This document shows, piece by piece, positions 3,590-51,869 of a stretch of 64,000 bases of DNA. Below the pieces are notes generated by a model. That model made no database searches. It was not told the DNA's origin and saw only the letters and a list, made by a program, of their open reading frames with translations. The position numbers and the translations under genes are program-made. This stretch comes from Diabrotica undecimpunctata (lineage: Eukaryota; Arthropoda; Insecta; Coleoptera; Chrysomelidae): contig NC_092810.1 of assembly GCF_040954645.1 (NCBI RefSeq), positions 74,674,660-74,738,659 on the forward strand. Reading direction: 5' to 3'. The stretch's first letter is position 1, and every line of letters starts with the position of its first letter.

Positions 3590-5530
3590 AGTTTATCCAA
3601 ACTAAGATAAACGTCTACAAAGAAATCAAGACTAGGATGGTCGGTATTGCTACAGAATTTTCATGTAGATTATCAGAAGTAGCACCTCACCACCATATGC
3701 TCGCACATGCACTGGATTGCCAATGCCGATGGATAGCAAGACCCAGTCAGCCGCCGAAGAAAGGCAGGACACCCAGTCGGTTAAAAGAATGTACCGGACC
3801 ACCAGAAAAGGAAAAGAGGCAAAATAAGAAGAAGAGGGAAATAGATTCAACCCCTCCGGATAAAAAAGAGGTTATGGAACACTCGGACAACGAGGACAGG
3901 TAATTGGCAACTAATGGTAACAAATCAATAACAACAGAAGCAGCGAAAAGAACAACAGTGAAAGCAGCAGCCTAAGCAGAAAAAGCGACGTAGATTAGCG
4001 ACAAAACCCAATGCACTGATAATCTGCCTGATAAAAAAGGAAAAGTATGCTGAGATACCTGACGGAGTCAAGAAGGGCATCCCTGACGAACAGGTCCATT
4101 CCACAGTTGATAAGTTTCACATGGGAGTCACTGGAAACCTGTTAATTATCCTAAATAAGGAGAATACTGATGAAGGTCTAGGTTTATAGAGGACTAGTAC
4201 CGACCTTCTCAAAAATGACGCTACTGTTATCATAAACTAGCATGTTATCTTCCCCTTTGTACACTGGATACATCTGGTAAAATATTAGAAAAAATAGTCC
4301 ATCAAAGAATCGAATCAGCAGCTGAACAGCTGCTCCACAGCAGTTAGTATGGTTTTGACTTCGCCAACTGGAATTACATTTTGCGAGCTCTTGCCGAAAT
4401 GAGGGTACCGCCATATCTAAGGAGGGTAGTGACTAGCTACTTTATCGATCGACGTTTAATGGATGACTCAAAGTCTGGTCCAAAGGAATACAATCAGCAG
4501 AGGAGTAACACAGGGCTCTATTATATGCCCTCTCTCATGAAATATTATGTATTATGGGTTGCTAAACATATAATTACCAAGGGATGCTAGGCTCGTGACA
4601 TAGACCGATAACGTGGATATGGGGATCGTCCCAAAGCACCTTGAGGAAATAAATTTCACGTTCGACATCATCTTCGAGAGAATCTGCCAGCGAATAAACA
4701 CAGTCAATCTAAAACTAGCGAAGCACAAAACTGAGACAATGCTTATTTCTAGCGGGAAACAAATGAAAACCGTAACGCTTGGCATTGAAGAACATGAAAA
4801 CACGTCACAACCATTGATTTGGTACTTAGAAGTGATGATTGATGCCAGACTTAACTTCAAACAGCAGGTGTAGAATGTCAGTGCTTAACCGTTAGTAGTA
4901 GGGCAGCCTTATCACGGCTAATGCTAAATGTAGGTGGTCCAAAACAAAACAGTAGGACGATACTGTTGTCAGTAGTGACGGCATTATTAACATACGGAAT
5001 ATCCTTTTCGGCTGACACTCTCGAAACCCAGGAATCACGGAGAAAGATCGCATCAGTAAACCATCTAAGCGCCGTAAGAGTTGCCAGCGCATTCTACAGT
5101 ATCTGCAAATCTACAGTATCTACGGTATTACAAATACAGTGTATCTCGATATACTTAAAGAAGAAGAGAATGGCAAAACAGCATGCGTCGATGGCAATTA
5201 CAGTGGGATTCCTCAACAGCGGGCAGGTGGACGCATTGTCTTATACCGCAGGTGCATGTTTGGCTGAGCCGCAGACATGGCAAGGTCAAACACTATCTGA
5301 CGGAGATACTCTCAGAGTGCTCGTCGTGTTTCGGGGTCAGTGAAAGCCGGAGCACGTGTTCTTCGTGTGTCCCCGTTTTAACTTGCTACGCAATACTCTG
5401 AAAGCTATTATCAAACAGAAAATTCGACCAGAGATCATAGTAGGAGAAATGCTTTCATCGAAGGCAGCTTACGATACAATCTGCATATTCGCGATTGAAG
5501 TCCTCTAGGATCTTTGTCATATTGAAAGGA
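3590..5530 (+). mobile_element. R1-clade LINE, decayed ORF1 and ORF2
   Basis: Traces occur in R1 order but in several frames. A basic, charged ORF1 segment spans 3637-3903 and a second ORF1 block 3983-4189 (ALIICLIKKEKYAEIP). RT blocks include TSGKILEKIVHQRI near 4270, VPPYLRRVV near 4410, LAKHKTETMLISSGKQ near 4715, then YLEVMIDARLNFKQQV and MLNVGGPKQNSR near 4830-4950. A C-terminal region follows (WLSRRHGKVKHYLTEIL near 5270, then HVFFVCPRFN near 5360 in another frame). Stops and frameshifts are frequent, and much of the central RT including the YADD motif is gone. Canonical R1 targets 28S rDNA; no rDNA is visible here, so this is an off-target or sequence-independent relative, or a relocated copy. 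Confidence 0.75.
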
Positions 5531-13538: not shown

Positions 13539-16905
<3,367 letters not shown>

Positions 16906-37477: not shown

Positions 37478-39003
37478 ATGGCGGATGTAAACCTGAGCAG
37501 TGACGCATCGGAGCCTTTCGGATCCGATTTCAGCGATATAGATAGCGATTATAATCCCAGTTCTGCAAATATAGAGTCTTCAGGTGAGAAAGTAACAATA
37601 ATATTAATATTTAAATATAAAACAAGCGAGATACCCCTTAAATAGCCATTTATAAACAAATGTGGCTTAGGCTATTTTACCGTAAACTTATTTGTAATAT
37701 ATTTTTTATTATTCTAGACGAGAATAATAATGATTCGAGTGAAAAAAACTCAATAAATGGTTTGTCGAACACTAAGAATCAAGACAATGATGAATCAGAA
37801 GGCAAATTGCACCAAAATTTCAAAAAGAGAGTAAGAAATCTTGAGAATCATGCAAGGTATAAAAGGAAGATAGCCAGGGAGAAATGAGAAGAATATGTCA
37901 CGGAAGAAGGAAAACGTAAAAATGCTAAAGAACTCGTAGTTGGACCATGTTCGTGCAAAATGAACTGTCATATGAAAATTTCTAACGAACGAAAGCAAAG
38001 CATCTTTAAAAATTACTATTCGCTTAACTGGTCAATGATAAATGCTTTTATTCTAGGTCAAATAAAAGTAGAAGACAAAAAGAGAACTCAAGATATCCAA
38101 AATTAAAATTCACGTAGGTCTAAAACTCGTGTATATACTTTAGCGGATGAAAATGGTTCTGACCAAGTGGTATGTAAGAATTTTTTTAAAGACACAGTTT
38201 CCATTACAGATGGAAAAATTTCATTAGCTTTGGCACGAAAACAAGAACATGGGACACCTCTTCAAGATGCAAGGGGCAAACATCCACCCCATAATAAAAC
38301 TAATATTGAAGACGAGCAGTATTTATGTGGCTCCATTGAATTGTTTTCAGCATACAAATCCCACGACTCCCGACGAAATAATATAAAAGGGAAATATCTT
38401 TCACCAACTTTGAACATGTCGATCATGTATCGAGAGTATGAAAAAAAAATGCACAGAATACTTAAGCAACTCCCTCTCGCTGTTTATGTTTGGCAAAATT
38501 TTTAACACCAAGTTTAATTTGCATTTTCATGTACCACATAAAGTTAAAAGTGTGACAGTCTTAATACTGAAATAAAATCATCTGATACTTCAGAACAGCG
38601 TAAACAGGATGCAAAAGTTGAATTGGAATTACACCACAGAAAAACAGAAGCAGTTAAAAATAGACAAAAGCAAAATATAATTAAAGCAAAAGACTCATAG
38701 CAAAAAATATAAGTTTTAGTCTTTGATCTTCAGAAAACGCTTCCTACTCCTGAGTTAAGTACAGGTGTAGTTTATTATAAGAGACAACTGTGGACATATT
38801 ATAATTTGGGCATCCATGATGAAGTCACAGAAACAGGACACATGTATGTCTGGCCTGAAAATGTCGCATCCCAAGGAGCTCAAGAGATAGCTTCATGCTT
38901 AATAAACCATCTTGAGGCGCACTTACCAGACCCAACAAGATTTTTTGTATCTGGATATAGTTTTAATACATACGATCAAGATTTTGGGTTGATTGAAAAA
39001 AAA
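37478..39003 (+). pseudogene. Multicopy insect gene family copy, two exons, interrupted
   Basis: Exon 1 (37478-37583) encodes MADVNLSSDASEPFGSDFSD, an acidic leader, and ends at CAG|GTGAGA. The acceptor TTCTAG at 37712-37717 joins in frame to DENNNDSSEKNSINGL. The exon 2 remnant has a basic KRVRNLENHARYKRKIAREK segment, a Cys-rich CSCKMNCH stretch, RNNIKGKYLSPTLNMSIMYR near 38370, and [16 protein letters not shown] near 38960. From memory this order matches an unnamed, highly repeated insect family that may be transposon-derived; function unknown. Stops at 37885 and 38104 and frameshifts inactivate it. Gypsy element A is inserted directly after the GLIEK block, and possible continuation follows 45130. 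Confidence 0.55.
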
Positions 39004-39260
39004 ACATGTATTCAGCGTGGCCCGTGTAACTGTTCCATCTCAACGCAAAGCGACTAGAAAATTCCAGGGATAACGAGTGCGAGAGAGAATAACCGGTCAC
39101 GTAGGCGAGGTGGGAATGTTGTAGAACATAGTAACTTTGGTATATATATGTAACGTTGTTAGGAGTGAGTTTTAGTTGTTAAGAGAGTACCGAACTGTAA
39201 ACTTATAAATAAATATATTTATATAAATTCGAACCACTCGTTTTATTTAATCTCGCTGCA
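39004..39260 (+). repeat. 5' LTR of Gypsy element A
   Basis: Matches 44962-45129 from ACATGTATTCAGCGTGGCCC onward, with TATA-like TTGGTATATATATG (about 39138-39151) and AATAAATA near 39208. The first few bases seen in the 3' copy (TCTTACGA) are absent here. The right end is set by the primer-binding site. Confidence 0.8.
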
Positions 39261-39262
39261 GA

Positions 39263-39279
39263 TGGTGTCCGGTGTGAGA
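39263..39279 (+). other. Primer-binding site candidate
   Basis: TGGTGTCCGGTGTGAGA starts 2 bases after the LTR. Element B has the analogous TGGTGACAGCGGTGGGA. The priming tRNA is not identified. Confidence 0.5.
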
Positions 39280-39570
39280 TTTGAAAATAAATTCAGCAGT
39301 GGCTTTTGAAAAAGACTTTTGAACTTTTGAAAAGTATTGTTCGTCGGGAAAATCCGCGTAGTTCGGTAGTGCCCTTTGTATAAAAGAACATTTAAAAAGT
39401 ACTTGTGTGCCTGACCAAAGATGCTGCTAGTAGAACTTTCAGTAAAACAGTTAAGATACTCCAAGAAGATACTCCAAGAACGACTGAAGACTGTTCTCAA
39501 CAAGAATGGAGACGACCCAGAGACATTCCAGTTTCAATCAACAGAAGAAGCCGTTTTAACTAAAATAATT

Positions 39571-39864
39571 GATAGAAAATTCGAGAATGTTTCCACAAGA
39601 TTCGATGAAACCTCTCAAATGATAGAAGATACTTCTAAAAAAAATGATGATAAATTCGAGAACGTTTCCAAAAGATTCGATGAAACGTCTCAAATGATTG
39701 AAGAATCTTCTAAAAAAAATGATGATAAATTTGAAAACGTTTCCAAAAGATTCGATGAAACGTCTCAAATTATTAAAGAAGTAGTTAGACAAAACGACGA
39801 GAAACTCGAGAAGGTTTCTAGAAGATTCGACGAAGTATGTATTCAGAACAATGAGAAATTTGAA
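39571..39864 (+). repeat. 75-bp coding tandem repeats in gag
   Basis: Units start at 39571, 39646, 39721, 39796 and 39850 (spacing 75, 75, 75 and 54 bp). Each encodes about 25 residues of the type DKFENVSKRFDETSQMIEE. They are charged, likely alpha-helical or coiled-coil, and could mediate Gag oligomerisation. Confidence 0.85.
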
Positions 39865-41089
39865 GACGTCTCTAAAACATTCGATCAGATACAGAAAAAT
39901 GTAAACAACGTAGAAGAGAAGATCAAACAATTGGAGACCATGATAACTAACACGAAAGTGCTACCACCAATTAATACGGTAGCTTTAGATCTGGTAGGGA
40001 AAGAAGAATCACCTAGAGATGAAATGACACATCATATGGGATTCAAATTGCCACCATTTGATGGAAAATCCTCTTGGTCCATATACCTTAGACAATTTGA
40101 AGCTATTGCGACAGCCAATCATTGGACAGAACAAGAAAAAGCTGTTTCCTTGACTGCTGCTTTACGAGGTGATGCTGCGGATATCCTAAGATCAATTCCT
40201 AAGGGTCAAGAAAAATGTTACCAGACCTTGTTCACTCGACTAAATAAATGTTACGGAGATGCCCATCTACAACAAGTCTACAAAGTACAAATAAGAAGTA
40301 GAATCCAACGAGCAAGTAAGAGTTTGCAAGAATTTGAAGCAGATCTTGCTCGTATAGCGCTGTTGGCCTTTCCAGAGGCACCATGTAACAGTCGTTACTT
40401 TTATTACAATTTATATTAAAATAATAAACAATTTATATTAAAATAATTTCAGAGATGTAGTATGGGTTGCCTAACTTTAAGTGTTCATTTGCCCATTAAG
40501 TGTGTATTGTTAATAATTTAAGTTGTCACTCTGTTCTAATTTGGTACCATTGCGGACCAGAGAGATGACAGGAGATTAGGGGGGAGTGGAAACTGGCTCT
40601 TGGTTAAGAAACTGTGAATTAAAATTCACTTTTGATCGGGAGTTTGAAGTGGTACACAACGGTGGTAGTTAGCGAAAGAAAATCCAATTAATGCATAGAA
40701 TTTCCTTCACTTCAAGAAGTTAAATATTCCAAGTAGAACCATAACAATTTAATTGACGGTGTTTTCGGAAACTCGGGAAGATGAAGTGAGATTTCTAGCA
40801 CGGAATTAAGTAGCTATCTGGTAAATAATAATTTTTTATATTATAAACATTAGAGTATTTTATCTATATCCTATTATTCAGATTCATTATTTCATATTTT
40901 AATATAGTATTTTGTCCAAGGCCATTATATTTTTACTCTATGTGAAGCAAGGTCACGCTACATCCGATTGGATGGGTTTTTTATCTACCATAATTATCTT
41001 TTTGCTCCGGTTTCTTATGCTGAAAGAAACTTTCCTCACTTCTTCTTTGATTTCTTTTTATCAATGTTGAGATTAGAAGTAACGGGGAA

Positions 41090-41299
41090 TTGTTTTCAGC
41101 CACCTACCATGGAATTATAAATTTCCCTCAGAACATCCGAGGGAGAGTACCACTTCAACTCTATAAGAATCAGGGTCATTGGGACAAGCCAGGGAGTATT
41201 GTCTACTCCACCCTCATTTTTTTTCTCCAGCCTGCACCTAGAGGTAGGGCAGGACAGTCATCATCGGAACTGAGCCAATTAGCACCAGCTCCGTGCTAA
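41090..41299 (+). other. Conserved 69-codon ORF inside the LTR
   Basis: MFSATYHGIINFPQN... ending in SQLAPAPC. The other LTR copy (56962-57171, minus) encodes the same 69 residues with two differences. No domain recognised. This may be coding or simply structured LTR DNA. Confidence 0.4.
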
Positions 41300-41400
41300 T
41301 TTCGGACCTCAAGGAGGACTTCGCTGGGACACCGAAGCCATTCGGGAGTATCCTTCCAGACAACTGTTTCACCTAGGAGGACAGTTGGTTTTTACTTCAG

Positions 41401-41403
<3 letters not shown>

Positions 41404-41470
<67 letters not shown>
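41404..41470. repeat. (TA)n microsatellite in LTR
   Basis: First of two AT tracts in the solo LTR; its counterpart in element C is 56807-56857. Confidence 0.95.
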
Positions 41471-41472
<2 letters not shown>

Positions 41473-41501
41473 TGTTTCACCAGTTCTAGTTTTTTTTTTA
41501 T

Positions 41502-41504
<3 letters not shown>

Positions 41505-41582
<78 letters not shown>
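41505..41582. repeat. (TA)n microsatellite in LTR
   Basis: Second AT tract; its counterpart in element C is 56685-56772. Confidence 0.95.
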
Positions 41583-41584
<2 letters not shown>

Positions 41585-42764
41585 TAATATAACTCCCCTT
41601 GGTGTAAGGTATCGGTAAGTTTGAGCTCAAATTCTACCCAGAGATTATCTTCCATTGTTTTTGTATTAACTAATTATTTCATTATTAACTTTAATTATTT
41701 CATTATTTGTTTACTTAACTAATTTCTTTTATATTTCATCTTGTGTTATTAACTCCGGTTATTATCCCTTCAGGATAATAGACCGTTTCAATTGTTTAAC
41801 TTGGCTTGTTCCCATTTATGTATTATTTTGTTTATATTTGAATTTAGAGTTGTTTAACAATATTGTTGGTCATATTGTAGGTCAGTTTAATATATTTTCT
41901 TGGCTATACGTTCTTCCAACGTTAGCCTTACTTTGTTTAAGGTTGTTTTTAACCTAGATGTAGGTTGTACACTCTATATCAGAGTTATTCTGTCTAGTTT
42001 TCAACTTTTTATTATAGTTGTTTTCAACCTTTTTTTTTTTTTTAAATATTATATTGTGAAATTTTCATATACTTTTTGGTAACTTAGAGATTGTCAAAAT
42101 CTAAGAAGTTATATTTAATAAACTTGAATTTGTTTTGCATATAATTTTTTATTAATATTTCCTTACCTTTTTACATTTACAGCATTTTTGTTTATTACAT
42201 CAACTTTAATTAATTTTAGCAGTATACGATACCTGGAAGAGTGACAGTTACTCTTTGTAGAGTAGTATCCCTCTTTTGGCGCCCTCAATTTGTTTTCTTT
42301 GTTAATTTTCATTATATCTATTCATTTTTCTTATCTTCTTTTCTATCCATCATACATATTTTCCTGATTTACTGTCTTTAAAAGGCATGCAAATTGGCCG
42401 TATCCATCCTTGAGTTTCTAGTGGTCATTCTCCTGCCTACATTGCTAGCCTAGCCACATTCCGTTCAATATTTTTTTTCATACTTCTTTACTTAATTTTT
42501 ATCTATTTTATCCCAAATATATAGACCACTCTTCTTATACCTCTCTCCTCCTACACACCCCAGTATTTTGCTACAACCAGACAATATTTTGGAAGAAATT
42601 GCTGTAGATGCCTTCGTCAATGGGTTAAGAGACAGTGAACTACAGAAAGCTTTACGACTAGCAAGACCGACAGTTTTAGATGAAGCGCTCGCTATTGCCT
42701 TGGAACATGAAACAGCTAGTCAAGCTTCATGGAGTCAAGCTACTACTATCGAGTACGAACCTCT

Positions 42765-43380
42765 GAAGAGAGCGACGAACAAAACAAGAAACGTCTGGAG
42801 GAAATCGTACGGAAAGTAGTTCGTAACATGATGCCGAAGAGACGTGAACCCAGATGTTGGAATGGTAACGACGTAGGTCACATTCGTCGTAAATTGCATG
42901 CAAATAATACAACAGCCAGAAAGCTAGAACAGATCGAACACTGGGCTGGAAAAAGTCATTCAAATGCGGAAGCTCGGTCAAGACGGCGATGCAGTGCAAG
43001 TTGTAATCACTGTCTTAGATTAGAAGAACGACTTTGCCTTGTGAGACGAACCACCGTCATTAATGATCAATGGCAGCCTCAACAGCTACAAGACGCTCAA
43101 GCAGATGATCCATGTATAAAAAGAGTATTGGATTGGATGCATCGAAGTGTAAGACCTTCTTGGCAAGACATTAGTGCATGTAGTCCCGAAGTCAAGTGTT
43201 ACTGGAGCCAATGCAATTGTCTAGTGCTGAAAGATGATCTTCTGTATAGAACCTTTGAAAACGATGATGGTACAGAAAGTAAGCTTCAGTTGATTGTACC
43301 TAAATGTAAAGTGTCAGAAGTACTGCGTCAATTGCATGACGGTGCATCAGGTGGACACTTTGGTATCACGAAGACTCTGC
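42765..43380 (+). pseudogene. Gag zinc knuckle fused to RNase H tail and integrase N-terminus
   Basis: After a frameshift the frame reads EQNKKRLEEIVRKVVRNMMP and a damaged zinc knuckle (RCWNGNDVGHIRRKLH; two of the CCHC cysteines are changed). It then passes without a stop into HSNAEARSRRRC, which in Gypsy Pol is the end of RNase H (H-x-NADALSRRPC). The DNA for protease, RT and nearly all of RNase H has been deleted with the frame kept. It continues through a linker to LRQLHDGASGGHFGITKTLQ, the His-His half of the integrase zinc-binding domain, and then breaks. Confidence 0.75.
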
Positions 43381-43381
43381 A

Positions 43382-44183
43382 GTGGGTAAAAAGAGAGCAC
43401 CCATGAGACAGTACAATGTTGGTAGTCCTATGGAAAGAGTAGGAATCGACATTGCAGCTCCACTTCCAGAGACAAATGATGGAAATAAATATATCCTAGT
43501 AGCCATGGATTGTTTTACGAAATGGACTGAGGTGTATGCGATACCAAATCAAGAAGCTGCTACCGTTGCAGAGGTACTTGTTAAAGAATTCTTTAGCCGA
43601 TTTGGTGTTCCCTTGGAGATCCACTCCGACCAAGGGCGAAACTTTGAGTTAACCCTTTTCCAAAACGTTTGTAAATTGATTGGTGTCAATAAGACCAGGA
43701 CGAAACCCCTGCATCCTCAATCAGATGGAATGGTCGAGAGAATGAACCGAACAATGGGTAAACACCTGTCCAAAGTTGTATCAGAACATCAAAGAGATTG
43801 GGACCAGCACATTCATTTATTCCTAATGGCCTACCGCTCGGCCTTGAATGAAACTACAGGCCAGACTCCAACCTGCCTGATGTTAGGTCGTGAAGTTCGT
43901 TTGCCCTGCGACCTAGAGTTTGGCTGCAGACCTTTCGAAGAACATGTTGCAAGCGAAGATTATGTCGACCGCCTGAAGTTAAGAATGAACAACATTCATG
44001 AACTTGCCCGACAACACATCCAGTTAGCCAGTGACAGAATGAAAGATCAATACGATTCTCGATGCAAGAATGAATTATAAAGCCAAACAAGTGATCTTGT
44101 TTGGCTTTATAATCCACAACGTCGTCGTGGCTTGTCTCCTAAAGTGCAAAGACAATGGGAGGGTCCGTATGAAATTAAAAAGT
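43382..44183 (+). pseudogene. Integrase core and C-terminal region of Gypsy element A
   Basis: Ty3/Gypsy integrase catalytic core: RVGIDIAAPLPE (first Asp), LEIHSDQGRNFE (second Asp) and DGMVERMNRT (Glu), followed by SALNETTGQTPTCLMLGREV. The Cys-Cys half of the zinc-binding domain was lost in a second deletion at about 43375-43390. A TAA at 44078-44080, created within a palindrome, and a TGA at 44181-44183 interrupt the frame, which otherwise runs (DLVWLYNPQRRRGLSPKVQR) into the macro-domain ORF. Known role: inserts element DNA into the genome. Confidence 0.8.
44074..44113. repeat. 18-bp palindrome that creates a stop in integrase
   Basis: 44074-44091 and 44096-44113 are exact inverted copies around TGAT. 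The right arm is the expected coding sequence (LVWLYN); the left arm is its inverted copy and supplies the TAA. Confidence 0.85.
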
Positions 44184-44887
44184 GAATAAATGAAGTAATA
44201 TACCGAATTAAGAAGTTGTCGAAAGGTAAACCAAAAGTAGTTCACGTAAATCGTCTTGCACCATATGCTGGCTCAAATGAAACAGAAGAAGCACGAACCC
44301 TTCAACATCAGATCAAAGATGACCCTCGACCAAGCTTTAATGAATTTATGTCAAATTACGCAGACAGAAAGAGTGCTAGATTCGGCGTGACGACAGAAGT
44401 TCAGCAGAATCTTTTTAGTGTTCCGCATAACGTCTCGCTAGCCCACTGTATTGCCCAAGATCTCGAGATGACTAAAGGAATCTCATCTGTTTTTTATAAA
44501 AAGTTCGGTCGTTTGGACGAGTTAAAAAACCAGCAGCCTAAAGTTGGAAGAGTACTGAGATTAGAAGATGGTTCTCCATCTTTGCTGTATATGGTGACCA
44601 GGAAGTCGTATACAGACAGGGCAACCTACGAGGATATATGGCGTGCTCTAAGTAATTTGAAGAAAATTGTGTGCAATTACGACATCAAGAATTTGGCCTT
44701 ACCCAAGATATGCCATGCACTAGATAATCTGGACTGGAAGATTGTCAGAAGCATGCTTGAAGTGATCTTCCGAGAAACTGGCGTACGAATTACTGTGTGT
44801 TGCATTAACCCGATGAGATCGTCCTTCAAAGTCAGTAGACTCTTATTTCTTTCTAAAGGATTCATGCAGATCTGGAGAGTCCTGTAG
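44184..44887 (+). CDS. Integrase C-terminus fused to OARD1-like macro domain
   Basis: The open frame is the same one as integrase upstream. It starts with the integrase tail (KPKVVHVNRLAPY), a linker of about 45 residues, then a macro domain of the OARD1/TARG1 type. Numbering from TTG 44216: NLFSVPHNVSLAHCIAQDLE (65-84), GISSVFYKKFGRLDEL (88-103), LLYMVTRKSYTDRATYED (123-140), LALPKICHALDNLDWKIV (160-177) and FRETGVRITV (185-194). Macro domains bind ADP-ribose, and OARD1 removes it from proteins. By remembered alignment the OARD1 catalytic Asp is kept (Asp170), while its catalytic Lys position is Arg129 beside Lys130. The ORF ends 53 bp before the polypurine tract, so it lies inside the element. 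It is probably inactive in this decayed copy. Confidence 0.8.
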
Positions 44888-44939
44888 ATTCCGCCATCCT
44901 GTGCCTACATATAGAGTTGCTGATCGGGACGCTCAGATC

Positions 44940-44954
44940 TAAGAGGGGGAGCAG
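44940..44954 (+). other. Polypurine tract of element A
   Basis: AAGAGGGGGAGCAG directly precedes the 3' LTR. Element B has AAAGGAGGAAGCAG at the same place. It primes plus-strand DNA synthesis in LTR elements. Confidence 0.75.
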
Positions 44955-45129
44955 TCTTACGAACATGTATTCAGCGTGGCCCGTGTAACGGTTCCATCTC
45001 AACGCAGAGCGACTAGAAAATTCCAGGGATAACGAGTGCGAGAGAGAATAACCGGTCACATAGGCGAATTAGAGGTGGGAATGTTCTAGAACATAGTAAC
45101 TTTGGTATATATATGAAACGTTGTTAGGA
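44955..45129 (+). repeat. Truncated 3' LTR of Gypsy element A
   Basis: Begins TCTTACGAACATGTATTCAG and follows the 5' LTR until GTTGTTAGGA, then diverges. It contains a 6-bp insertion relative to the 5' copy near 45066. The remainder is missing. Confidence 0.8.
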
Positions 45130-45841: not shown

Positions 45842-45960
45842 CTGACGTTCCAAACTTCACTAGACATTTCAAGAATTTTCGATGTCATCTTGAATGTTCT
45901 CGAACTACTTCTTCTTTTTCGCCAATGGACTTTTCCTATGTGGGATAAATCTTTCGTAAC
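45839..45960 (-). repeat. Partial 3' LTR of Gypsy element B
   Basis: Matches 52033-52172 with few differences (shared CTGACGTTCCAAACTTCACT and TTCGATGTCATCTT). The first base pair of the TG terminus is altered. It ends at the (TA)n tract. The purine tract AAAGGAGGAAGCAG lies just inside (about 45962-45975). Confidence 0.8.
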
Positions 45961-47100
45961 CTGCTTCCTCCTTTATAGTTATTCTCCTCGAATAACTGGA
46001 CTATCGGGGATCGATTGAAGCCAACGGGTTGATCAGTTCCATGGTATGGAGCTAGTCTCTCGATATGAACTACCTTGGGTTTACTTCTAGCTGAAAACTG
46101 GATGCGATAGATTAGATCATTTATTTTCTGCAGGACGGTATACGGGCCTTCCCAGTTTCGTTGAAGTTTCGGACAAAGTCCTTTCTTACGTGTGGGATTG
46201 TATAACCATACTGGGTCACCTCTTGCGAAAGTTGTACCAGTAGCATGCATGTCGAGCCTGGCCTTGGCTTTATTGCTTTAAAGCTTCAAACTTTTACGAG
46301 CAAATTCGTAGACGTTTTCTAATTTTTCTTTCAAATTTTCAATGTAGGTCGGGGGTGAACGTTCTTCTTCGCAAAGAGGCAATCTTCCGAAAATAAGATC
46401 TTGATGAAGCTTCATTTCTCTTCGAGTGATCATCATTGATGGAGAATAACCAGTTGCTTCATGCCCGGAACTTCTATAGGCTAACTGGAATAGAGGAATT
46501 AAACTATCCCAATCTTTTTGATTATCAGAGACAAACATTGAAAGGTATCGACAAACAGTTCTATTATGTCTTTCGACCATTCCGTCTGATTGAGGATGGA
46601 GAGGCGTAGTGCCTCTCCCTGTATAATTCTGATTCAAAATTTCGTCCTTGATCAGAATGTAACTTCTAAAGGAACTCCATGTCTTGATACGACGTGTGTT
46701 ATAAATGCTTCTGCTACTGTAGTTGCTTCTTGATTAGGACGGGGTAAAATTTCAGGCCATTTTGAAAAGTAATCCATTGCGACCATTAAGTACTTACTCC
46801 CTCTCTCTGTCATCGGAAGTGGACCAAGAATATCCACTGCAAGTCGTTCAAAAGGCTCTCCGGAAAGGTATTGTGCCTTTTTACCACGACTTCTTGTTCT
46901 AGGGCTTTTTTTACCATTACATAAATCGCATTTTCTACACCAATCTTCTACATCTCGGCGACAATTGATCCAGTAAAATCTGTCTCGAACTCTGGTCAGT
47001 GTTCTTTTGACTCCAAAATGTCCTCCAGAAAGGCTGCTATGAAGTTCTTGCAACACACTTTTAATGTGTAATTTCGGCAGTACCACTTGTTGAACTATAC
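45936..47100 (-). pseudogene. Integrase region of Gypsy element B
   Basis: Zinc-binding domain intact: ELHSSLSGGHFGVKRTL (His, His) and CRKCDLCNGKK (CxxC), then RLAVDILGPLPMTERG (first Asp) and YFSKWPEILPRPNQEATTVA. The frame breaks near 46652 at the expected second Asp. PLHPQSDGMVERHNRT (Glu) is in the next frame (46637-46278), and DPVWLYNPTRKKGLCPKLQR plus PKVVHIERLAPY end the protein at 45936, just inside the LTR. Confidence 0.8.
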
Positions 47101-47969
47101 GTACTCCATCGGGACTTTCCCACTTCCGATATAATAGACCATTGGAAAGATAGAGATTCCCATTGAGCCCAGTACGCTTCTATAGTTCCACTGTATTTGG
47201 TTATTTCCTGCCAAATAGGTCTTACTCCATTTTTAAGCCATTCTCGTATGACTTTTAAGTCATTATCTTTCGTTTGACTCTTTTTAAGGTTTTCCAGGGA
47301 AGTCTGATCATTATCTTCTTTCTGTATAACTGTGTTTACCTGGAGACTTACTTCTTCGGTTATATTCTCTTTATCTTCAAGTCTTTTACATTATCGTTCC
47401 AAACAGGGTCGCCTAGAAAGAATATCGGCATTGTTATCGAGACGCCCTTTTCTATGTACTACGTCGAAGTTATACTGTTGGAGTCTCTCTATCCACCGAA
47501 CCACTTGTCCCTCTGGCTTCTTAAAATTCATTAGCCACTGTAAAGCGCTATGGTCAGTTCTAACTATAAAATTTCTGTTATAAAGAAAAGTATGAAAAGG
47601 TTCTAGGGCTTTTATAATAGCTAGGAGCTCTTTTCTGGTAACACAATAATTCTTTTCAGCCTTTCCCATTGTTTTACTAAAATATGCAATCTTTTTCTTC
47701 GCCTTCCTGTTCTTGTGATAATACTGCGCCAATACCATGCTGAGATGCGTCACAGATCCAACAGAAATTTGCCATCTTCTCGTGGATATGCTAGAATTGG
47801 TGCTGTTGTAAGTCGTTTTTTTAAATCTATGAAAGCATTTTAACAATCCGGTGTCCAGTCAAATTCAATGTTGTTTTCGGTTAGTCGATAAAGGGGCTTA
47901 GCTATGCGGCCAAAATCTTTAATAAATTTTCGGTAATATGAACAGAGTCCAAGAAAACTTCTAATTTCC
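47101..47969 (-). pseudogene. RT C-terminus and RNase H region of Gypsy element B
   Basis: SFLGLCSYYRKFIKDFGRIA (about 47960-47900, other frame) marks the RT connection. RNase H shows KNYCVTRKELLAIIKALEPF (catalytic Glu) and FIVRTDHSALQWLMNFKKPE (catalytic Asp), ending NNADILSRRPC. Several stops and frameshifts. Confidence 0.75.
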
Positions 47970-48086
47970 ACAAGGAATCTACGTTTCTGTATTTGGCTGT
48001 ATACCATATATTAAAAAATTAATTAAAATCCTTTGTAAAAGGTATATATTTATATATACCTTTTACAAAGGATTTTAATTAATTTT
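47970..48086. mobile_element. 117-bp hairpin insertion with 11-bp target duplication
   Basis: The inserted block is flanked by TTCTAATTTCC at 47959-47969 and 48087-48097. Removing one copy restores the RT reading order. It contains a 37-bp perfect palindrome with a TT loop (48013-48049 and 48052-48088) and GGCTGTATACCATATATTAA, shared with the left flank of the MITE at 24521. Confidence 0.8.
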
Positions 48087-48097
48087 TTCTAATTTCC

Positions 48098-49724
48098 TTT
48101 TTATTTCCTGGTTTAGGCCAATCTTTAATAACTGAAATCTTCTCTGGATTAGTTTTAATTCCTACTACTGAAACGATATGTCCTAAATAGTATGCCTCTC
48201 TTTGAAATAGTGAACATTTCTTATAATTTAACTTTAAAGTGGCATTTTTCAATCTGTCAAATACGTCGCTTAAGTTTTTCAGATGTTCGTCAAACGTTTT
48301 GGACATAATCATTATATCATCAAGATATACTAGACACGTTTTCTAGGTAAGTCCTCTTAAAACCTTCTCCATTAGACGTTTAAACGTAGCTGGAGCATTA
48401 CACAGACCAAATGGTAGAACCTGAAACTTGTAGAAACCACGGCCAGTTGAAAAAGCTGTTTTGTCTCGATCATCAGGATGTACTTCTACTTGCCAGAAGC
48501 CACTTTTTAAATATAGGGTAGAAAATCACTAACAAATGATAGAGTGTTTAGTGTATCATCTATTCGTGGCAACGGATAACTGTCTTTTTGTGTAACCTGG
48601 TTTAATCTTTTGTAGTCTACACAAAAGCGAATAGATCCATCTTTCTTAGTTACTAATACTACTGCTGAACACCAGGGGCCCGAAGCTTCTTCGATAATAT
48701 CAGCATTTATCATGTCTTGTATTATGTTTTCAACTTCTTTTTGTCTAGCAAATGGCAATCTCCGTGGCGCTTGACGAATTGGTCTTGCATCTCCAGTATA
48801 AATTCTATGTTGAACTAAACTAGTACGCCCTGTAGATTTCTCGGATTCAAAAATGTCGTAGTTTTCATTAATAAATTCGTTAATTTTGTTTAACTCTTTA
48901 GTTGTTAAGTGGTTAACATTTTTGATTATTTGTTTCACTAGGCTAGCGTCAACTGGGTTACTGGAAGCTGTATTCTTTTTCAAATATTTTTCGCTTTTGC
49001 GTATTTTTTCTATTGGTGTATAGAATGCTGTGTTGTTCTTTCTTAAATTTAAAAGGCTTTTTAGACAAAGTCTTAGCAACCGTTACTGGAATCATCTCCT
49101 CTACATTAATGAGGCATCTGGCTATCAAAATTCCATCACTAACTAGTTCATCGCTTTCCACCACGCCGAAATGTAGACCTTCAGGTTTTTGACTCAGTCT
49201 CGCCAGGATGATACTTTCAGAATTTTGAGGAATTTCGGTATCCTCGCTCACTATAACTCTTACTTGAGGTACCGATTCTTCCAAATTTAGGACAATTTCT
49301 TCATTTTCAATTAACAAAATTTTATTTTGAAGATCTATGATAAATTTGTTCTGCATAATATTCATCCCAAGAACGCATTCGTCTTTAATATCGGCTACAA
49401 GAAAAATGTGTTTTATCAAGGTGTTACCAATCTGTATGGTTGCCGTTATCTCTCCATGAATTGGAATAGTGTGGCCTGAAGCTGTTTCAAGAACTAAGTT
49501 TGTTTTAGTGGGTTGTAGTTTCTCATTCAGAAATCCGGTTCGAATAAAGGATCTGGTTGCACCGGTATCAATAATAAAGGTGCATTTTTTATTCTCAACG
49601 TAGCCCTTAAGTAATAAATTCTGTTCATTTTTATGTAAAGTGTAAGTGCAAATTTGTTTTTATTTTTATTTGTTTCCCTGGCTATTGTTTGCGTATCTGT
49701 GGTCAGTTGTGAGAGATCGATTTC
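48098..49724 (-). pseudogene. Protease and RT of Gypsy element B
   Basis: Protease: CTFIIDTGATRSFIRTGF (DTG active site, about 49585-49530) and CVLGMNIMQNKFIIDL. RT: QAPRRLPFARQKEVENII, VTKKDGSIRFCVDYKRLNQV and YPLPRIDDTL. After a frameshift the catalytic YLDD is at about 48312-48325, then KKCSLFQREAYYLGHIV. Stops at 48507-48540 and shifts near 49080 and 48330 inactivate it. Confidence 0.8.
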
Positions 49725-49727
49725 TTA

Positions 49728-50600
49728 GGGCCGGTTTCACCAACGACAAATAGCAGTCTATTCAATGAATAAAGTTATTCGACCAATAAAACTGACATAT
49801 CTGCGTTTCACCAACGTCAAATAAGACTTATTCTATGAATAAACTCCAAATAAGTTATTAGTCCAATTTCGGCCAAATAAATATTTATTCTTCGAATAAG
49901 TTGACAACTAACCTCACTTTAAATATCAATAATAAAGAAAATTCATTAGTTTAACTTGAAATTATCAACAATGTATTGCAGGTAAACGTAATTATATCAC
50001 ACAATTTGAATTTTGTATACATAAATATTTATTTTAGATTATTATCTTCTTCATCATCATCCTCTGATGACCGAAATGAGCAGCGAAGGAGAAGACCACG
50101 CTTGCAGCTGCAAAGAAGAAACCCTTTTGCTGAATTTGATTATGTGGACTTTAAAACTAGGTTTAGATTATCAAAGTTCTCCATTTCTTTCTCTAAATAA
50201 TTTTTGGTGCTCTCGCGTTTTTTGTCCATTTTCTCAAGTTTCAGATTCACAATAATTTACAATCACAACAAACAGATTTTTTTATATAAATTATGTATTG
50301 ACATTGACAATTATTGTTATTTTGACAAATTAATCAACCAATATCAAATATTATAGGTTATGTATATGATTACAGTGAAAAATAGTGCGATGCGCTTGGC
50401 CAAGCATCTAAGAGGTGGAGGCCAAGAGAGGTGTCAACGAGTATAGCCTGTTAAAAATCATTACACTTTGAACTTATTCAAGGAATAACTAACTGTGGAT
50501 TACAAATAGTTATTGAAACGGAATAAAATTTATTCTACTAATAAATTTTATTCGGCGATTAACTATGCAGTGATTTATTTGTTGTTGGTGAAACCGGCCC
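49728..50600 (+). mobile_element. PIF/Harbinger element, non-autonomous
   Basis: Flanked by TTA (49725-49727 and 50601-50603). Termini are inverted repeats beginning GGGCCGGTTTCACCAAC, followed by subterminal AAATAA-rich repeats. It is inserted between gag and protease of element B. It keeps a fragment of its own nuclease gene. Confidence 0.85.
49971..50200 (+). pseudogene. HARBI1-like nuclease N-terminal remnant with mini-intron
   Basis: ATGTATTGCAG|GTAAAC at 49971-49981, a 56-bp AT-rich interval ending TATTTTAG (50037), then an in-frame second exon: a serine run, RNEQRRRRPRLQLQRRNPFA and EFDYVDFKTRFRLSKFS, ending at TAA 50198. The DFKTRFRLSK block matches the start of HARBI1-like nucleases. 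The DDE core is gone. This identifies the element as an internal-deletion derivative of an autonomous PIF/Harbinger. Confidence 0.6.
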
Positions 50601-50603
50601 TTA

Positions 50604-51869
50604 GAGACCTATCTCTACTAGTATTTCTAATAGGACTATGTGATGAGCTTCTGGATGTCGATCTAGGCGACCTGTTAGCCTCATTCTTTGGATGTTCTCT
50701 CCTTGTTTAGGATCGGCTTCTGCAATTGTTTTGAAAATGTCCTGTTTTTGAAATAAATTGCTTTTGTTGAAGATTTTGCAGTATGTTTACAAATTGGGAT
50801 AAAATAGTTTGTTAGTTATCTGCGGTTGTGATTTCTTCATTTTCTTGAAATCTTATTTCTCTTAATTTTGGACGAGATCTGGAAATGCTTTTTGCCGCTT
50901 CATACTTCTGGGCTGAGACTAGTGCTCTATTTAGCGATTTGTAATGTTGTAATCGGAGAGCTTGTTGCATTTCAACATCCTGTAGTCCATCTATGAATGC
51001 TTGTATTTTAATTTGTTCAAGAAAATCTTTAGGTGCCTGAGGGTATGCCAAGTGTATTAGTCTTTTAATGTCGGCTTCAAATTCTTGCAGGCTTTCGTTA
51101 TGTTTTTAATATCAAATTTTTAGCTGACTTTGAAAAACCTGCTTTAGATGCTGCTGGCTATATATTGTCTCTAAAACTTCAACGAGAGAGAGGTATAACT
51201 GGGTGCATCTTGGGGAAGGAATTTCAAAACGGTTGCTGCCTGTCATCGAAGCGACACCACCAAAGAAGCTGCCATTTCTTTTTCATTCCAGCCATTTGCT
51301 CTAGCTGCAGCTTCAAATTGAAAACGATAAGTTTCCCATGCTGTCTTAGCATCGAATGTGGGTGGTTTTAAAAATTTACTAGTTCTAATTGTACCTGGTT
51401 CAATTATGGAAGGTGATGAAGCTGTTTGTTTAGATTCGACGTTAGTTACTGAAACATTAGATAAAGAGGCTTGGGTATTAATTTTTTTTTCTAACTCAAC
51501 TATTTGCATTTGTAAATTAGATTTCAAATCATTTTGTTGTTGTTTTATTTTATTTTCAAAATTGTTTTGTTTTTCTTCTAATTTATCTATTCTACTGGTG
51601 ATTTGACTTATCTCTAACTGAAAATTTTCGTGAATTTAGGATAAACCATCTATGATTTCTACCTCTATTTTTTTACGCCTCTCCTTTTCCTCTTCCTTTT
51701 CTTGCCTACGCTTCTCATTTTCCGCTTTCTCTTCTTGTCAATGCTTCTCATTTTCCGCTTTCTCTTCTTGTCTACGCTTCTCTTCATCTTCTTTCATTTT
51801 TAAAAACCATGCAGGGGGTCCGGACGTATCCATTTCTTTGTCAAACTCAGTGGATCTTGTATTTACCAT
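50604..51869 (-). pseudogene. gag: gag of Gypsy element B
   Basis: From the ATG at 51869: MVNTRSTEFDKEMDTSGPPA, a glutamate/lysine/arginine-rich repeat (EEKAENEKRRQ units), a coiled-coil-like SRIDKLEEKQNNFE segment, then KFLKPPTFDAKTAWETYRFQ and ANGWNEKEMAASLVVSLR, SLQEFEADIKRLIHLAYPQA and EMQQALRLQH. Stops and frameshifts near 51720, 51640, 51240 and 51100. The zinc-knuckle end is degraded before the PIF insertion. Confidence 0.75.

Follow-up and report, generated by a model that had tools for sequence, protein, structure and literature searches.

A TARG1-like macro domain behind the integrase of a Ty3/Gypsy retrotransposon family in Diabrotica

Does a macro domain that follows the integrase of a decayed retrotransposon belong to the element, and if so, where does it come from and what might it do there? 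The question is raised by a locus of the beetle Diabrotica undecimpunctata at positions 44184-44887 of a stretch of 64,000 nucleotides (contig NC_092810.1, positions 74,674,660 to 74,738,659 of the forward strand), which as a whole we call the window. A preliminary description of this DNA had proposed a Gypsy element in which the integrase frame, interrupted by two in-frame stops, runs on into an OARD1/TARG1-like macro domain, this being the element's own coding sequence between integrase and the 3' long terminal repeat (LTR). The continuous frame was confirmed by our reading of the open reading frames (ORFs) and by a match to TARG1 (E 1.5e-26), and the place of the domain in the element by many further copies and by other species. 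We read the locus as a decayed member of a high-copy Ty3/Gypsy family that was active recently and whose Pol ends with integrase, a TARG1-type macro domain and a CCCH zinc finger, in that order. To this account as a whole, in which a module captured from the host would handle ADP-ribose and in Diabrotica would read rather than erase it, we give an even chance.

The macro domain (44390-44800) was identified by its sequence match to TARG1 and by its predicted fold, and not by the Pfam Macro model. Residues 69-205 of the translated piece 44186-44884 match the human OARD1/TARG1 structures 2eee, 4j5r, 2l8r, 4j5q and 2lgr with E values of 1.5e-26 to 1.8e-26, and both sequence and predicted fold are closer to TARG1 than to other macrodomains. 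As the same piece opens with the p58 C-terminal domain of integrase (PF22938), integrase tail and macro domain form one reading frame. In a viral library the fold model (m2574d610f4a8) also found matches in several thrips viruses and in Kadipiro virus VP8, the latter with 34% identity.

The 1.74 Gb assembly of the same genome was searched for further copies and the best-scoring ones were examined, so that old or divergent subfamilies may differ from those described here. A search with the macro piece gave matches at all 150 places scored (the best 150 of 7267 first-look candidates). Using the integrase core alone as query (the best 150 of 18175 candidates), we found frames of 1413 or 1414 residues in 70 of the 150 places and frames of at least 1800 residues in another 20; in the loci examined, frames of these lengths contain the macro domain, and they presumably do so in the rest. 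From the remaining 60 we picked 20 copies by hand, and every one of them contains the macro domain (14 about end to end, six partially as judged by the best aligned piece) as well as the CCCH finger; one has a stop within the macro domain. From this integrase-selected sampling it follows that the macro module is a fixed part of the family, as far as sampled. Of the full-length relatives for which the preliminary description had proposed a search, open copies exist in the same genome, and further beetle elements have integrase and macro domain.

The architecture is best seen in the open copy L030, which was scanned with Pfam in five pieces (SAP-Gag, PR-RT, RH-H2C2, rve and p58-CCCH). These gave SAP (4.1e-6), gag (1.6e-6), aspartic protease (PR, 2.2e-11), reverse transcriptase (RT, 4.2e-30), RNase H (RH, 4.7e-36), the H2C2 region (1.2e-21), the integrase core (1.1e-15), the p58 C-terminal domain (4e-7) and zf-CCCH (PF00642, 1.1e-5), and the Pol order of protease, RT, RNase H and integrase is that of Ty3/Gypsy elements. 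The CCCH finger, which was absent from the preliminary description, scores 25.7 bits in L030 against a cut-off of 20.5 and agrees with the motif C-x7-8-C-x5-C-x3-H. The frame continues into this finger in 24 of 27 other copies (L005-L028), is broken before it in L002 and L003, and has an end shifted like that of the window copy in L004; in the open copies the finger ends immediately upstream of the polypurine tract. The SAP domain, which is of DNA-binding type and lies at the start of Gag (L030:1386-2705), was also found in Aromia (P0008 and P0009, 6.9e-9) and appears to be unusual in a Gypsy Gag.

Full LTR pairs of 271-284 bases are present in 11 of 12 long loci (L029-L040), all 11 with target duplications of four bases, and eight of these pairs are identical, with L031, L036 and L038 differing by one, one and two bases. 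Because the pairs are identical or nearly so, the family must have moved recently. The twelfth locus, L037, has a partial LTR pair (188 of 188) without target duplication. The 3' LTR is followed by the four bases xTAx, mostly ATAT or ATAC, at all 32 distinct ends among the loci L004-L054 (eight loci without an end), a strong local site preference. Two coding layouts occur in L029-L040, a single frame from Gag to the CCCH finger with 1803-1866 residues (seven loci) and a Gag separate from the frame of 1413 or 1414 residues (five loci). An open frame of 921 residues is common to 18 of 150 copies as counted by eye (for example L041-L045); this suggests the amplification of a subfamily whose Pol frame is shortened and which may have had help in trans.

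Constraint and catalytic residues

The preliminary description had suggested a check of constraint and of the catalytic residues, and this favours a maintained domain. It was made on 25 distinct open D. undecimpunctata frames (38 before removal of duplicates). In this set, picked by similarity to the window copy, an open frame and a kept first finger Cys, the ratio of non-synonymous to synonymous polymorphism (pN/pS) was 0.061 (interval 0.035-0.103) for integrase, 0.127 (0.052-0.256) for the macro domain and 0.107 (0-0.367) for the CCCH finger. The linker gave 1.34 (0.205-6.246) and the tail 1.09 (0.299-4.441), and the hinge showed non-synonymous changes only.

The attack on the distal ribose is carried out by Lys84 in TARG1 according to PMC7050489, which prints the second catalytic residue as Glu125, the human sequence having Asp. 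The window copy has Arg (44600-44602) at the place of Lys84 and Asp (44723-44725) at that of Asp125. The expectation that the catalytic Asp is kept holds for the window copy and for 25/25 distinct open frames. The suspected Arg was found as well; its attribution to decay has to be given up, because the open copies share it, as do all 19 integrase-selected copies in which the site is covered. The residue following the Lys84 place is Lys in 19 and Arg in six of the 25 open frames, and the loop that holds Asp125 reads GHALD (GCG changed to GHA, with Gly123 replaced by Ala). With the Lys84 nucleophile being Arg in all 25 frames, ordinary TARG1 chemistry is argued against in Diabrotica.

Among the 29 element rows that we compared across species, Lys84 is Lys in 25 and Arg in four (three Diabrotica and one other contig). 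Asp125 is kept in 25, Glu in two from D. virgifera, and Ser in two with a local deletion; at the level of proteins, Glu was seen in P0001, P0003 and P0004 of D. virgifera. Both residues are kept in 23 of the 29 rows, and these relatives are predicted hydrolases.

Relatives and origin

A query of 916 residues was matched in its macro-CCCH part by ten proteins, including records from Diabrotica virgifera, Harmonia axyridis, Aromia moschata (three) and Callosobruchus maculatus; the other four come from three further contigs and from the powdery mildew fungus Erysiphe pulchra (P0006), a record that is probably insect contamination and has a macro domain similar to the one on a further contig. Pfam found integrase core or tail in eight of the ten and RT in four, with gag only in P0011 and RT and RNase H only in P0012. 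Shorter proteins were searched with a profile, with 2093 matches, and most of the 120 listed among these are vertebrate host OARD1. Insects among the matches listed were Molorchus, Brassicogethes (Nitidulidae), Gonioctena, Leptinotarsa, Acanthoscelides, Pyrocoelia (Lampyridae) and the leafhopper Macrosteles, where the short records of Brassicogethes, Gonioctena, Acanthoscelides and Macrosteles lack integrase and were assigned to elements by linker, CCCH finger or tree. The group of P0013, P0054 and P0091 has integrase tail and macro domain followed by a short tail without CCCH finger. The combination, a ligand-handling domain captured by a Ty3/Gypsy element, is real, conserved and present in several beetles. 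For annotation this means that the Diabrotica gene models named OARD1-like (P0001-P0003) look like pieces of the element and not like the host enzyme.

For the phylogenetic trees the rows were labelled as host or element before tree building, the 29 element rows being 28 of 42 element-like database proteins and L030, and two partial rows (one Acropora and one Mytilus domain) were removed beforehand. All 29 element macro domains fall on one side of a branch with a support of 99/94, and of 100/95 after ten domains from viral contigs had been added. This clade is adjoined by an aphid OARD1, by Aromia P0080 and by the Diabrotica host gene L049 (97/90 and 99/90). The host gene (L049, 1027-3306, minus strand) lies at a locus apart from the element and encodes a single open frame of 760 residues with a long N-terminal part; its macro domain has both Lys84 and Asp125. 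It shares 42% with Aromia P0080 over 319 residues, including a C-terminal region behind the macro domain that the elements do not have. No Pfam integrase or CCCH match was found in L049, and the C-terminal region common with P0080 is also without Pfam matches. Since the element rows form one clade that adjoins insect host OARD1, the simplest reading is a single capture, most likely from an insect host OARD1/TARG1 gene, after which the domain would have travelled with integrase. An integrase tree made from seven macro-bearing rows revealed a compact lineage. The two Diabrotica species are separated by shorter branches in integrase (0.017 and 0.009) than in the macro domain (0.025 and 0.036 plus 0.053).

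An origin of the domain from an insect virus or a DNA virus instead of a host gene seems improbable to us. TARG1-like macro domains do occur in viral contigs, and the fold matches to Kadipiro virus VP8 and thrips viruses point in the same direction. The ten IMG/VR contigs (L055-L064), three of them on long and unsure branches, were however rejected as donors because they fall outside the animal OARD1 rows, while the element rows adjoin the beetle and aphid host genes with 99/90 in a tree made of host, element and viral-contig domains.

The window copy

In the window the element lies on the plus strand and is heavily decayed. Compared with its sister copy L030, non-element DNA fills 40384-42575, and protease, RT and RNase H are deleted at about 42937. 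The 5' LTR (39002-39260), recognized by BLAST against the LTR of L030, lacks its first bases, and a direct repeat of 97% identity links 39003-39108 with 44962-45067. The primer binding site region, where TGG follows directly after the LTR, was read from the sequence at 39261-39280 and has an equal layout behind the 5' LTR of other long loci. It is followed by a gag part with coiled coil and capsid start at 39415-40383 (ORF 39415-40419; Retrotrans_gag E 0.0024, below the cut-off), and L030 agrees with the window copy to 84% across 39002-40383. The end of gag occupies 42576-42937, corresponding to L030 element positions 1462-1812, and the match to L030 resumes behind the deletion at position 3909 onward. 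The H2C2 zinc-binding region of integrase at 42931-43381 (PF17921, E 5.8e-7) also matches L030, and the integrase core (rve) lies at 43385-44077 (PF00665, E 3.4e-15). The C-terminal SH3/p58 part at 44078-44263 (PF22938, E 6.7e-8, residues 2-26 of the piece 44186-44884) contains both in-frame stops, 44078-44080 and 44183-44185, which interrupt the frame running from 43382 through integrase to the terminal stop at 44885-44887. A linker with little sign of constraint in open copies (44264-44389) leads to the macro domain.

Behind the macro domain, comparison with the open copies places the C-terminal CCCH finger and tail of the family ORF at 44841-44942. A small frameshift upstream of the stop at 44885 puts this segment, up to the polypurine tract, into another frame, and the finger of the window copy is out of frame, has lost its first Cys and has a broken motif. 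Because of this frameshift the stop at 44885 is not the natural end of the family ORF. An end just before the polypurine tract, as claimed in the preliminary description, is therefore correct for the family ORF, which closes with the CCCH finger, and incorrect for 44887. The polypurine tract (AAGAGGGGGAGCAG, 44941-44954) stands directly before the 3' LTR, as it does in the 11 full LTR pairs, and the 3' LTR itself, recognized by its match to L030, is shortened (44955-45127).

A second, broken Gypsy element on the minus strand (45936-51635) is a useful contrast, as its integrase tail has a p58/SH3 domain without a macro domain in the listed frames. The window further contains a CA/TG dinucleotide repeat of about 1.7 kb at 14550-16290, and an Rfam scan of it gave no match at gathering scores.

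Possible role of the module

Integration leaves gaps that are sensed by PARP enzymes. We propose that the Pol-borne module would bring an ADP-ribose-handling pocket to the integration complex, where the CCCH finger probably contacts element RNA and the macro domain may engage the ADP-ribose of chromatin marked by PARPs, of DNA ends or of proteins. The marks would be removed in most lineages and, more probably, bound in Diabrotica. For TARG1 itself, an interaction with PARP1 (PMC7050489) and activity on nucleic acid ends and proteins (PMC7050489, PMC11920425) are reported. In Diabrotica, Lys84 was replaced by Arg and purifying selection on the domain persisted, so that the module there is more likely to bind ADP-ribose as a reader or tether than to erase it by the TARG1 reaction.

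Several known systems are similar in part. OARD1/TARG1 (C6orf130) belongs to the ALC1-like macrodomain class, and the element version differs from it in its fusion between integrase and a CCCH finger and, in the open D. undecimpunctata frames, in the exchanges of Lys84 to Arg and Gly123 to Ala. The host gene L049 has a homologous macro domain with both catalytic residues and differs from the element by its long N-terminal part, its extra C-terminal region and the missing integrase and CCCH matches. Chromoviruses, also Ty3/Gypsy elements, carry an extra domain at the same place of Pol (PMC3605345); here the place of the chromodomain is taken by a macro domain, joined in most relatives by a CCCH finger, the lineage is an insect one and targeting is putative. 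No chromodomain was among the Pfam matches of the L030 pieces at E 0.1. A macro fold within the polyprotein of a parasite is known from alphavirus nsP3 and rubella p150. Captured accessory domains with a proposed anti-defence role are described for the insect LINEs TRAS and Jockey, which are non-LTR elements with an SF1 helicase domain of RNA-virus origin (PMC5563155). Among the listings of open-licence PMC papers that we searched, none described an LTR retrotransposon with a macro domain, which is no proof of absence.

The strongest competing idea, which we consider unlikely for Diabrotica but take seriously, is that the module is a working (ADP-ribosyl)hydrolase there too, tolerating Arg or acting independently of Lys84, and counters the host PARPs by clearing integration intermediates, element RNA or proteins of ADP-ribose. 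The conservation of Lys84 and of Asp125, each in 25 of 29 element rows, together with the invariant Asp125 of the open Diabrotica frames speaks for it, as does the listing of human TARG1 as active on protein, RNA and DNA that carry ADP-ribose (PMC11920425). It has to accommodate the Arg in every examined Diabrotica copy covering the site, the adjoining GCG loop turned into GHA, and the Glu of the three D. virgifera proteins. Of the interpretation in the preliminary description, the part that is supported is a Ty3/Gypsy element with the macro domain as its own coding sequence; the eraser role and the proposal that ADP-ribosylation restricts retrotransposons in insects are putative, and for the Diabrotica family we regard a reader or targeting role as at least as likely. 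A pure targeting device without any link to defence, steering integrase to ADP-ribosylated chromatin in the manner of a chromodomain, appears rather unlikely. It would fit the position of the module, which follows the integrase C-terminal domain immediately and in frame, chromodomains being found at the integrase C-terminus (PMC3605345), and the non-random xTAx at 32/32 distinct 3' ends; this TA preference concerns local DNA, though, and is uninformative on ADP-ribose, and catalytic residues kept in most lineages are unexpected for a pure reader.

That the segment is a mere passenger, copied along without function for the element, we hold to be very improbable: P0013, P0054 and P0091 do without the CCCH finger, and linker and tail show no clear constraint with all hinge changes non-synonymous, but the macro domain and the finger have pN/pS values of 0.13 and 0.11, and the module is kept in elements of several beetles and in all 20 integrase-selected copies. 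A one-off capture, named in the preliminary description as an outcome speaking against its claim, was rejected, as 150/150 scored places and other species match and many copies of the genome, the integrase-selected ones included, have the module. Flanking host DNA or an assembly error has a practically negligible chance and was rejected as well, since the macro domain shares an open frame with integrase in many copies, ends at polypurine tract and LTR, is found in records of other species, and the host gene L049 lies elsewhere.

Some points weigh against our preferred reading of a host-captured, ADP-ribose-binding module. The Pfam Macro model (PF01661) gave no match at E 0.01 for the window piece and stayed below its cut-off in L030 (E 0.012, 16 bits versus 22), so that the profile check suggested in the preliminary description came out positive for OARD1/TARG1 (E 1.5e-26) and negative for PF01661. 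The host gene L049 is likewise without a PF01661 match and one element relative, P0091, exceeds the cut-off with 32.7 bits; the model is too insensitive here and not a strict marker of the TARG1 class, and the other outcome named as adverse, a missing macro fold, did not appear, fold prediction and TARG1 match being positive. The selection of copies by similarity, open frame and first finger Cys favoured low pN/pS values, and the linker, an internal control within the same query, has a wide interval that overlaps that of the macro domain. Binding or hydrolysis of ADP-ribose is putative, deduced from sequence and fold. SCO6735 is reported as an ALC1-like hydrolase without both residues (PMC7050489); Lys84 being the TARG1 nucleophile, its replacement by Arg lowers the chance of hydrolysis but, given such a dyad-less enzyme, does not exclude it. 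A virus as go-between in the capture would also be compatible with the trees.

With somewhat less than even confidence we extend the preferred reading to the whole lineage: a widespread group of insect Ty3/Gypsy elements may have taken over an ADP-ribose eraser of the host as a constant component of Pol next to integrase, added a putative RNA-binding finger and, in Diabrotica, turned the eraser into a reader. Whether integrase needs to read or to remove ADP-ribose is testable by ordinary biochemistry, because the family has a high copy number, its genome also contains a host paralogue, and lineages with Lys and with Arg occur naturally. ADP-ribosylation is a battlefield between RNA viruses and vertebrates, and the elements described here link it to reverse-transcribing elements in insects. 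If the reading is true, retrotransposon integration would have ADP-ribose signalling as a substrate or target.
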